From: Candidatus Thiopontia autotrophica
Lineage (GTDB): Bacteria > Pseudomonadota > Gammaproteobacteria > GCF-002020875
Direction of reading: 5' to 3'
DNA length: 43,285 nt
Assembly: GCA_014384675.1 (NCBI GenBank)
Contig: JACNFK010000019.1
Coordinates: forward strand, 1 to 43,285
This document shows positions 2,360 to 3,574 of the stretch, piece by piece; the stretch's first letter is position 1, and every line of letters starts with the position of its first letter. The notes beneath the pieces are model-generated. The model had not been told where the DNA came from and did no database searches. It worked only from the letters and a program-made list of their open reading frames with translations. The translations under genes were made by a program, and so were the position numbers.

Positions 2360-2400
2360 GAAACATACTGAAATAGTAGGAAATTTTACTGTAACAGCTG
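2360..2400. promoter_or_regulatory. Four-unit GAAA repeat array, putative OmpR-type site 2
   Basis: GAAAC (2360), GAAAT (2370), GAAAT (2380) and GTAAC (2391) follow each other at 10, 10 and 11 bp, one per helical turn. The array ends 5 bp before a TATAAT box (2406-2411) that faces the small exported protein gene. No good -35 hexamer is visible, as expected for an activator-dependent promoter. The array lies between the divergent regulator gene and the small gene and could serve both. Confidence 0.6.
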
Positions 2401-2405
2401 ATCCA

Positions 2406-2411
2406 TATAAT
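2406..2411 (+). promoter_or_regulatory. -10 box of the small exported protein gene
   Basis: A perfect TATAAT sits 35 bp before the ATG at 2446, directly after the GAAAC array. The -35 region (about 2383-2388) is AT-rich without a TTGACA-like hexamer. AAGGA at 2433-2437 serves as the ribosome binding site. Confidence 0.5.
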
Positions 2412-2445: not shown

Positions 2446-2730
2446 ATGAAGTATTCAAACAAAATTATCACAACAGTTGCTGGAACACTATTGATCTCTG
2501 GTTCCGCTATGGCCTCTATAGCTGACGACCATACAGAGGCTGGATGGTCATCAGAGAACATGAGTGAGAACTATAGTGGCGAGCAAGTTAGCTACTCTGG
2601 GACTCCTCTCTCTGCAGAAGAGCTGAATGACAATGGTTTCAACTGGTCATCAGAGAGTCTTAGCAGCAACTTCCAGGAAGTTCGCTACACATTCGACGAC
2701 TTTCTTGAGGAAAGTGGCTTTAACTTTTAA
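2446..2730 (+). CDS. Small exported acidic protein with two internal repeats
   Basis: 94 aa; I do not recognise the family. A Sec signal peptide is clear: lysines, a hydrophobic core, then AMA at 21-23 with probable cleavage before Ser24. The mature part of about 71 residues is acidic and Ser/Asn/Glu-rich with no cysteine. It consists of two diverged copies of one motif: residues 34-65 begin WSSENMSENY and end NGF, and residues 67-92 begin WSSESLSSNF and end SGF. Both follow WSSE-x-(M/L)-S-x-N-(Y/F)-...-V-x-Y. The start is supported by AAGGA eight nt upstream and a TATAAT box. It is divergent from ompR behind a GAAAC array, so a periplasmic or secreted member of that regulon is likely. Confidence 0.75.
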   Translation: MKYSNKIITTVAGTLLISGSAMASIADDHTEAGWSSENMSENYSGEQVSYSGTPLSAEELNDNGFNWSSESLSSNFQEVRYTFDDFLEESGFNF

Positions 2731-2743
2731 TCCTTAACGGATT

Positions 2744-2780
2744 GAAACAATCTGAAATAGTGGTGAAACAACAGAGAAAT
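2744..2780 (+). promoter_or_regulatory. Three-unit GAAAC array, putative OmpR-type site 3
   Basis: TGAAAC, TGAAAT and TGAAAC occur with GAAA at 2744, 2754 and 2765, followed by GAGAAA at 2774. A TATGAT -10-like box at 2791-2796 follows, mirroring the layout at 2360-2411. A start of transcription near 2803 would place the hairpin 2806-2858 at the very 5' end of the transcript. Confidence 0.5.
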
Positions 2781-2805
2781 GGTTGCCCACTATGATGAGA
2801 GTCGT

Positions 2806-2858
2806 GAACAGACACTGGAGGCCTCTCCCTCCTCCTCGATAGTCTCCAGTGTCTGTTC
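2806..2858 (+). ncRNA. 5' leader stem-loop (perfect 15-bp stem)
   Basis: GAACAGACACTGGAG (2806-2820) pairs perfectly with 2844-2858 across a 23-nt pyrimidine-rich loop. There is no T tract, so it is not a typical terminator. It falls immediately after the presumed promoter and before the 34-codon ORF. With the terminator at 3024-3066 the transcription unit would be about 260 nt. It could be a stabilising leader, a translational switch, or part of a dual-function small RNA. Confidence 0.45.
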
Positions 2859-2898
2859 AGCTTGTTTATAGACAATTACCAATAACGAGAATAAGACC

Positions 2899-3003
2899 AT
2901 GAAAAATATGACTAAAAATATTATCAATTTTGTAATGGATCCACTGGGCGAAGGATTCATTGTTATAGGCTCAATGCTCATGTTCGCTCTATTTGCCCTT
3001 TAG
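2899..3003 (+). CDS. 34-residue single-pass membrane micropeptide
   Basis: 34 aa. An amphipathic N-terminus with lysines and asparagines is followed by DPLGEGFIVIGSML and a hydrophobic tail, predicting one membrane segment. Coding status is supported by the strong terminator 20 nt downstream, the promoter-like GAAAC/TATGAT region upstream, and a sequence relative at 3098-3205 (shared P-L-x-E-x-x-x-V-x-G-x-x-L). The ribosome binding site (GAGA, 11 nt before the ATG) is weak. Function unknown; OmpR-type control is suggested by position. Confidence 0.5.
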   Translation: MKNMTKNIINFVMDPLGEGFIVIGSMLMFALFAL

Positions 3004-3023
3004 ATAAAAGTTGTCCTCCCCCT

Positions 3024-3066
3024 AAATCCGATACACATTTCGAAGCTGTGTATCGGATTTTTTATT
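3024..3066 (+). terminator. Rho-independent terminator after micropeptide 1
   Basis: AAATCCGATACACA (3024-3037) pairs perfectly over 14 bp with 3047-3060, with a 9-nt loop, followed by a T-rich tail. The T tract lies on the plus strand, so it ends the unit holding the 34-residue ORF. Confidence 0.9.
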
Positions 3067-3097
3067 GCAACATACACAGATCAATTTAGTATATGAG

Positions 3098-3205
3098 ATG
3101 ACGATAAAGAGAGCGGTAGAGACCATACTTAACACCCTTAACAACCCCTTGATTGAGGTAATACTTGTATTCGGGATCATATTAACTGTTGTGATACTGA
3201 TGTAA
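3098..3205 (+). CDS. 35-residue membrane micropeptide, relative of the previous one
   Basis: 35 aa. A charged amphipathic N-terminus (MTIKRAVETILNTL) precedes NPLIEVILVFGIIL and a hydrophobic end. Aligned on the Pro-Leu pair, it shares P, L, E, V, G and L positions with the 34-residue ORF upstream, and size and topology match. It lies 31 nt after the previous terminator. A TTGCAA at 3065-3070 is a weak promoter candidate and no clear ribosome binding site is visible. The GGGGACAG palindrome begins 4 nt after its stop codon. The shared motif is the main support for calling it a gene. Confidence 0.42.
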   Translation: MTIKRAVETILNTLNNPLIEVILVFGIILTVVILM

Positions 3206-3209
3206 TCGG

Positions 3210-3284
3210 AAAAGGGGACAGATTTATTTTTTCGTACGTGGCCAGCAAAGTGTGGGGTCAGAAAAATAAATCTGTCCCCTTTTT
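3210..3284. repeat. RAYT-type palindrome, GGGGACAG family
   Basis: AAAAGGGGACAGATTTATTT (3210-3229) starts an inverted repeat whose partner is 3261-3284. Arms are about 23 bp with one extra T, and the loop is 27 nt. The GGGGACA tip is shared with 41411-41468 and with half-sites at 39811-39830 and 41493-41513. GGGGTCAG also occurs inside the loop (3254-3261). It is probably a non-autonomous element mobilised by a REP-associated transposase; the link is inferred from the two such transposases at 35-43 kb. Confidence 0.6.
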
Positions 3285-3335
3285 TTAATCAAAGATTCAA
3301 AGCACCCTCCATAGCACCCTCAGACCAATAAAAAC

Positions 3336-3395
3336 AAAAAAGCAGCTTGCCTTAATTGACAAACTGCTTGTATTGGTGGGACATGAAGGATTCGA
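3336..3395 (-). repeat. Duplicated tail of the tRNA-Lys gene plus terminator
   Basis: This 60-nt block matches 3461-3520 at 59 of 60 positions. It carries a copy of the tRNA operon terminator (3336-3369) and the last 22 nt of tRNA-Lys including CCA, and then diverges. The 65 nt between the copies (3396-3460) are GC-rich with small palindromes (TCGGC-TAA-GCCGA and GGACGTCC). Such a truncated tRNA 3' end could be an attachment-site scar of an integrated element or a local tandem duplication. No integrase gene is present. Confidence 0.75.
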
Positions 3396-3460
3396 TCGGC
3401 TAAGCCGAGGCGGCCGCAGGACGTCCACCGAAGGTGAGAATCCCCACATAAGCTGGAAAT

Positions 3461-3494
3461 AAAAAAGCAGCTTGCCTTAATTGACAAACTGCTT
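3461..3494 (-). terminator. Terminator of the tRNA operon
   Basis: Read on the minus strand, AAGCAG and CTGCTT form a stem around an 18-nt loop, followed by six T. It lies 4 nt after the encoded CCA of tRNA-Lys. Confidence 0.65.
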
Positions 3495-3498
3495 ATAT

Positions 3499-3574
3499 TG
3501 GTGGGACATGAAGGATTCGAACCTTCGACCAAGAGATTAAGAGTCTCCTGCTCTACCAACTGAGCTAATGTCCC
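3499..3574 (-). tRNA. tRNA-Lys (CTT)
   Basis: 76 nt with encoded CCA. Acceptor GGGACAT/ATGTCCC, D-stem GCTC/GAGC, anticodon loop CTCTTAA (anticodon CTT) and T-loop TTCGAAT are all present. Last gene of the Pro-Arg-His-Lys cluster. Confidence 0.93.

Follow-up and report, generated by a model that had tools for sequence, protein, structure and literature searches.

Does the intergenic DNA beside an OmpR/EnvZ-like gene pair of Candidatus Thiopontia autotrophica encode membrane micropeptides, and what would tie them to the neighboring two-component system? Micropeptide genes are missed by gene callers, and the window, i.e., the whole stretch of 43,285 nucleotides that was analyzed, contains two candidates, ORF A and ORF B (Table 1). 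An earlier note had described them as tandem paralogues. The basic description of both stands: the frames are open over 34 and 35 residues, and each encodes a charged N-terminus and one hydrophobic segment. Our answer separates the two. With a probability of about 0.55, we read A as a genuine micropeptide gene, most likely a direct OmpR target, whose transcript would be a dual-function RNA with a hairpin and whose peptide would tune an EnvZ-like kinase, and we set B apart.

Table 1. Features of the window around ORFs A and B.
Feature	Position	Strand	Remarks
EnvZ-like sensor histidine kinase, 448 aa	265..1611	-	best NCBIfam model EnvZ; best PDB match EnvZ cytoplasmic domain chimera
OmpR-like response regulator, 233 aa	1615..2316	-	best NCBIfam model OmpR
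OmpR-type promoter of the exported-protein gene	2360..2411	+	boxes at 2360, 2370, 2380 and 2391 (GTAAC); 10 bp; TATAAT 2406-2411
Exported protein (predicted), 94 aa, probable regulon member	2446..2730	+	signal-peptide-like start; relative in G001
OmpR-type promoter of the A transcript	2744..2796	+	GAAAY boxes at 2744, 2754, 2765 and 2776; 10 bp; -10 TATGAT 2791-2796
5′ leader hairpin, sRNA-like element	2805..2859	+	16-bp perfect stem; loop CCCTCCTCCTC at 2827-2837; fold z = -5.0
ORF A, single-TM micropeptide of the DPxxE family, 34 aa	2899..3003	+	ATG start
Intrinsic terminator of the A transcript	3024..3066	+	14-bp perfect stem 3024-3060, T run, z = -6.1
ORF B, hydrophobic frame without independent support, 35 aa	3098..3205	+	ATG start

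The OmpR/EnvZ-like pair and its promoters

Pfam domains and gene order show a regulator (receiver and winged-helix) and a kinase (HAMP/HisKA/HATPase) encoded together. The regulator scores 303.6 bits against an NCBIfam OmpR cut-off of 331 and the kinase 221 bits against an EnvZ cut-off of 415, both below, yet these are the best-scoring models. We call the two proteins OmpR-like and EnvZ-like because the models rank best although the curated cut-offs are not reached. Relatives of the regulator are found in five of five same-genus genomes, with 64–82% identity. The 94-aa predicted exported protein has a relative of 86 aa, 41% identical, at the same position beside ompR in G001; no match to a known family was found for the two proteins, which carry GFxWSSE-like repeats (window 2446-2730 and L045 2945-3205).

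The earlier note had seen a promoter-like region upstream of A. It is real, although not of the plain sigma-70 kind, for which a scan of that region returned nothing; it is a four-box OmpR-type promoter, in which four GAAAY boxes with a period of 10–11 bp are followed, after 10 bp, by the −10 hexamer. The DNA upstream of A and of two related peptides, C and E, aligns through repeated GAAAC/GAAAT boxes. In the genome that carries the window (G000, 1.58 Mb), the element GAAAY-N5-GAAAY-N5-GAAAY is matched perfectly twice, at the exported-protein gene (window 2360) and at peptide C, and the triple box with 5–6 bp spacing occurs at three promoters only, those of the exported-protein gene, A and C (control 0). 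The tie between A and the regulator is thus stronger than the proximity first proposed: a near-unique promoter element is common to A, C and the gene next to ompR, and a further relative, D, belongs to a second regulon.

Eight of the nine listed promoters place boxes 11, 21/22 and 31–33 bp upstream of the last box and leave exactly 10 bp to the −10 hexamer. They serve the exported-protein gene, A, C, E, peptide F of G004, the hairpin RNAs of G004 and G003, and norC of G003; the G005 promoter has retained its last two boxes. The triple box is missing from two of the six genomes that represent the genus. Relaxing the pattern to two boxes gave 8 sites (control 1), in which regulon sites are mixed with unrelated ones, and these were excluded from the evidence.

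OmpR of E. coli binds direct repeats of 10-bp period, GTTACATTTTGTTACAT (PMC5438342). The four boxes of the window, which are predicted sites, likewise form direct repeats with a period of 10–11 bp. From the best OmpR/EnvZ models and these repeats, i.e., from motif and adjacency, we strongly infer that the OmpR-like protein binds the GAAAY boxes.

Two other genes were found under this layout. Peptide F (G004:C25:20526, L080), recovered by a motif-first search, is a 35-aa single-TM peptide, MKEQIIVTGKYVIGAGSILIFLLASFTSILLLVLH, directly under a four-box promoter; it is an unrelated peptide, whose membership in the family of A found no support (637 of 5000 shuffles). In G003 (L082, C16:26181), the same layout precedes a gene for a NorC-like cytochrome, which suggests that nitric oxide reduction may be under OmpR control in that organism.

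A small peptide family

By its sequence, ORF A is a genuine gene and a member of a small new peptide family. The peptide, MKNMTKNIINFVMDPLGEGFIVIGSMLMFALFAL, when searched against its own genome, retrieved two paralogues with 42% and 38% identity: C (C34:126895, 48 aa, MHNIVKNRFHTIMDPIGEKVVYAVAVLMFTMFAVLAIQPVMILGMLLW, E = 1.9e-4) and D (C15:13707, 47 aa, MKKTGKNRFKALLDPISERLVVLAALLMFSMFAILAIHPFVILGISL, E = 3.2e-4). Peptide E (47 aa, MDKAEKSIFHLIMDPLSERMITALAVLMFSMFALLALYPIAILGLLL) is encoded in the same-genus genome G004 between ychF and an SLC13-type transporter gene, the position that C occupies in G000. The four share the motifs K-x7-D-P-[LI]-x-E and L-M-F-x2-F-A and have 10 invariant positions, including D14, P15, E18, L27, M28, F29, F32 and A33, and no cysteine is present in any of them. 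The V-x-G part of the motif proposed earlier is not a feature of this family, which we name DPxxE. A profile built from C, D and E without A gives A 37.7 bits, a score that none of 5000 region-preserving shuffles reached, and the match comes with the conserved K, DP, E, LMF, F and A.

The divergence within the family is of the coding type. Across all pairs, pN is 0.26–0.34 and pS 0.55–0.83, so that in most pairs synonymous differences are two to three times as frequent as non-synonymous ones (smallest contrast, 0.34 vs. 0.55); between A and its relatives, the values are 0.34 and 0.55–0.67. C and E are 54% identical in frame, and their identity falls to 28% and 22% when the other frames are read; A, C and E can be aligned at the DNA level over promoter boxes and ORF together. 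For the A locus itself, we found no direct orthologue; the frame of A is supported through its paralogues. AlphaFold predicts D as one helix over residues 5–46 (mean pLDDT 76.8).

Searches of Pfam, NCBIfam, PHROGs and plasmids with A and B gave no match, and no family member was found outside the genus in a class-wide sample of 369 genomes and a scan of GTDB contigs; genome-wide claims here rest on pattern and profile searches. A 46-aa match in G079, which lies antisense to an ABC-F-type gene, was discarded. Between the peptide core MDPLSERMITALAVLMF and the CDP-alcohol phosphatidyltransferase motif LDPVADKLMVAAALVLL there is a resemblance of chance-level significance. Kinship with these enzymes (PgsA motif LDPVADKLMV) was rejected, since the best E over the 369 genomes, 0.00135, is at chance level; their matches recurring in many genomes are one conserved protein matched repeatedly. 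Downstream of peptide C there are tandem repeats, TCGGCTACGCTGAGGCGGCTCTGCCGCC (L002 1669-1900, G000:C34), and a similar motif is found at window 3394.

The leader hairpin and a dual-function reading

The main feature of the A locus, absent from the earlier note, is the CU-loop hairpin that leads the transcript. Its loop, CCCUCCUCCUC, is seen again in three related genomes, under promoters of the same type and on stems with compensatory changes; the leaders of C and E have no such hairpin. When the genus was searched by promoter motif, with no regard to peptide sequence, hairpins with the CCCTCCTCCTC loop turned up in G004 (C46) and G003 (C16), the latter divergent from the ompR gene of G003, and a scan of loci added those of G005 (C104, divergent from ompR) and of G000 C15. 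The stems of the window, G003 and G005 differ yet pair: 97.8% of cells are paired, both partners have changed in 7 of 15 pairs, and none of 500 shuffles reached this. A covariance model recovers the G004 hairpin independently, at 22.6 bits; the C15 hairpin has the loop in common and not the modelled stem. Because the RNAs of G004 and C15 end in ordinary terminators and carry no DPxxE-family ORF, they are most simply sRNAs.

Rfam held no family above its gathering threshold for the hairpin RNA. Among the 369 genomes, the hairpin model had matches with E ≤ 0.1 in 13, of which three belong to the genus; outside the genus, the matches are at chance level. One hairpin of a distant gammaproteobacterium from another family (L102, G304), with the loop CCCCTCCTCCTCAG and apparently intergenic, is a possible independent CU-loop RNA.

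The loop pairs with the start region of ompR1 at rank 5 among 37 window genes, and this pairing is not kept in G005. An internal start of ompR2, one among several starts tried, pairs with the loop at −24.2 kcal/mol (2 of 500 shuffles). Since the pairing with the start region is unexceptional and does not hold in G005, feedback on ompR at the RNA level is unsupported.

We propose that phosphorylated OmpR (OmpR~P) would activate a single transcript of about 260 nt, from about 2803 to about 3066, ending at the perfect terminator that the earlier note had recognized. Its first part would be the conserved hairpin exposing the anti-Shine-Dalgarno-like CCCUCCUCCUC loop, and this leader may act as an sRNA whose loop pairs with ribosome-binding sites and silences mRNAs. 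ORF A would then yield a 34-residue, one-helix peptide of the inner membrane, which may tune the EnvZ-like kinase as a feedback modulator. Because the hairpin comes first and the 34-residue ORF follows, the A transcript is most likely a dual-function RNA, and A is probably a regulon micropeptide encoded on it.

A different reading would keep only the first half, with the transcript being essentially a regulatory RNA and ORF A a leftover or decaying gene copy, fused behind the hairpin and yielding no functional product. We consider it unlikely, even though several observations fit it. A stops at residue 34, so that it lacks the 13 C-terminal residues present in C, D and E and only about 15 hydrophobic residues are left, for which reason it is possibly a shortened or decaying copy; its ribosome-binding site, AACGAGAATAAGACC, is weak; and the hairpins of G003, G004 and G005 are found without a family peptide ORF. 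However, A has kept the D-P-L-x-E and LMFxxFA cores together with the low pN relative to pS given above, and the terminator lies directly 3′ of ORF A, which speaks against this reading.

A second OmpR/EnvZ-like system

Downstream of peptide D there is another OmpR/EnvZ-like pair (ompR2/envZ2), whose kinase again has EnvZ as its best NCBIfam model. The promoters of peptide D, ompR2 and two RNAs, a CU-loop RNA and another short terminated transcript, share GTMAYM-N5-GTAACA-N9-YANNNT, an element with exactly four perfect sites in the whole genome, all at this one locus. The latter transcript, a putative one (L049 about 2185-2310; G000:C15:11185 onward), has the OmpR2-type element at its promoter and is arranged in tandem with the CU-loop RNA, so that the two resemble a tandem sRNA pair.

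Counted as perfect sites, beside which weaker sites with fewer boxes may exist, the recognizable regulon of system 1 comprises the 94-aa exported protein, the hairpin-A transcript and peptide C, and that of system 2 its own promoter, one family peptide (D) and two putative sRNAs, one with the CU loop. The outputs of system 2 look regulatory because its element is found only at these places. To our knowledge, a micropeptide partner has been described for few sensor kinases. Since system 2 has no visible effector gene and the family copies segregate with the two kinases, feedback modulation of an EnvZ-like kinase by the peptide is our leading idea, by analogy with MgrB acting on PhoQ and MzrA on EnvZ.

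Several single-TM small proteins, e.g., AcrZ and KdpF, are known to modulate transporters. The DPxxE peptides could in the same manner be envelope effectors that act on a transporter or membrane complex, such as the SLC13-type transporter, whose gene is divergent from those of C and E and beside which these two peptides are found in two genomes. A and D do not adjoin a transporter gene, however, and D lies inside the ompR2/envZ2 locus, so we judge this role quite improbable and prefer kinase tuning.

ORF B

ORF B, MTIKRAVETILNTLNNPLIEVILVFGIILTVVILM, had been presented as a paralogue of A, on the basis of a gapless alignment that indeed contains the P-L-x-E-x3-V-x-G letters and nine identical residues. 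The two ORFs are adjacent, and their ungapped score was reached by only 4 of 2000 shuffles, B having been picked for that similarity. That they are true tandem paralogues is nevertheless very unlikely. The profile of C, D and E, which A matches, gives B 3.3 bits, a score at least equaled by 418 of 5000 shuffles, so that B falls outside the DPxxE family; its nucleotide similarity to A is weak (41 of 99 positions; 252 of 5000 codon shuffles); no relatives of B were found in the six genomes of the genus; it has no OmpR-type promoter; and it is located beyond the terminator of A. What stands of the earlier reading is that A is a conserved membrane micropeptide tied to an envelope-type two-component system; the paralogy of A and B is not supported. 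B, whose frame opens also at TTG 3065 to give 46 aa, is probably no gene or a decayed remnant, and on present evidence it is not part of the A/OmpR system.

Short ORFs are common here (117 of at least 25 aa overlap the first 9 kb), yet the view that the two ORFs and the hairpin all arose by chance in intergenic DNA deserves almost no credence: paralogues, promoter register, hairpin covariation and the genome-wide rarity of the boxes already refute it for A and the hairpin, although for B it is still the most probable reading.

Just 3′ of ORF B, the window has a perfect 22-bp inverted repeat, AAAAGGGGACAGATTTATTTTT (3210-3283), which looks like a palindromic mobile repeat. A 64-bp direct repeat, 97% identical (window 3332-3520), covers the 3′ end of a tRNA gene and its terminator-like flank, and a repeat-like insert separates its two copies.

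Comparison with known systems

The A locus functionally resembles three known kinds of regulator: micropeptides under two-component control, OmpR-activated sRNAs and dual-function RNAs. MgrB is a 47-aa inner-membrane inhibitor of PhoQ that belongs to the PhoP regulon and has functional C28 and C39 (PMC8404706). The DPxxE peptides are likewise single-TM micropeptides of similar size (47–48 aa in C, D and E), apparently under the response regulator whose kinase they would tune. The promoter element of A also occurs at the OmpR-like locus, and the peptide gene may belong to the regulon of its cognate regulator, as mgrB does. In contrast to MgrB, they lack the conserved cysteines and form a multi-copy family split between two OmpR/EnvZ-like systems, and their kinase binding is a proposal. 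MzrA is a 127-aa inner-membrane modulator of EnvZ (PMC2727453). It offers a precedent for an inner-membrane protein acting on EnvZ within the OmpR circuit, but it is far larger than A, and EnvZ/OmpR represses its gene instead of activating it.

On the RNA side, OmrA and OmrB are OmpR-activated sRNAs that feed back on ompR-envZ (PMC12692685). As an OmpR-controlled tandem pair, they recall the two putative transcripts of the ompR2 locus, for which feedback on ompR-envZ is conceivable; the RNAs described here differ in having no Rfam match, a CU-rich loop and one copy that carries a peptide ORF. The sRNAs alpha-r14 and NfeR1 have CCUCCUCCC loops with a CU-rich anti-Shine-Dalgarno seed, and NfeR1 silences the two-component mRNA ntrBC (PMC10746234). 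They resemble the A hairpin in a CU-rich loop, anti-Shine-Dalgarno-like in the latter, that is kept while the stems change, but they are alphaproteobacterial RNAs with three loops and no OmpR control, and the A transcript has one hairpin, the loop of which, CCCUCCUCCUC, is similar and not identical to theirs; we treat this as likeness rather than homology. Finally, SgrS/SgrT and VcdRP, a dual-function RNA with the 29-aa VcdP (PMC8672173), combine a base-pairing RNA and a small protein in one transcript, a likeness that for A is one of anatomy. The A transcript differs from them in that its control is of the OmpR type and its peptide is a membrane peptide from a new family.

The peptide and RNA families are absent from the libraries searched and confined to one genus in our samples, and their combination on one OmpR-type transcript is new.

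Meaning for the genus

Tentatively, and with considerable doubt, we hypothesize that the duplicated OmpR/EnvZ systems of the genus work largely via micro-scale outputs: each would have its own copy of a kinase-tuning peptide and a CU-loop sRNA that masks ribosome-binding sites, and in the window the two would be fused as one dual-function RNA with feedback on kinase and translation. The A transcript is, in any case, a candidate OmpR-driven dual-function RNA. A promoter-first search can find micropeptides without protein homology: the box layout led to a new family of RNA hairpins and to a second membrane peptide, of 35 aa and unrelated to the first. This small genome has two OmpR/EnvZ-like pairs, each accompanied by its own peptide copy and CU-loop RNA, and thereby offers a natural test in which the co-divergence of peptide and kinase after duplication can be followed.
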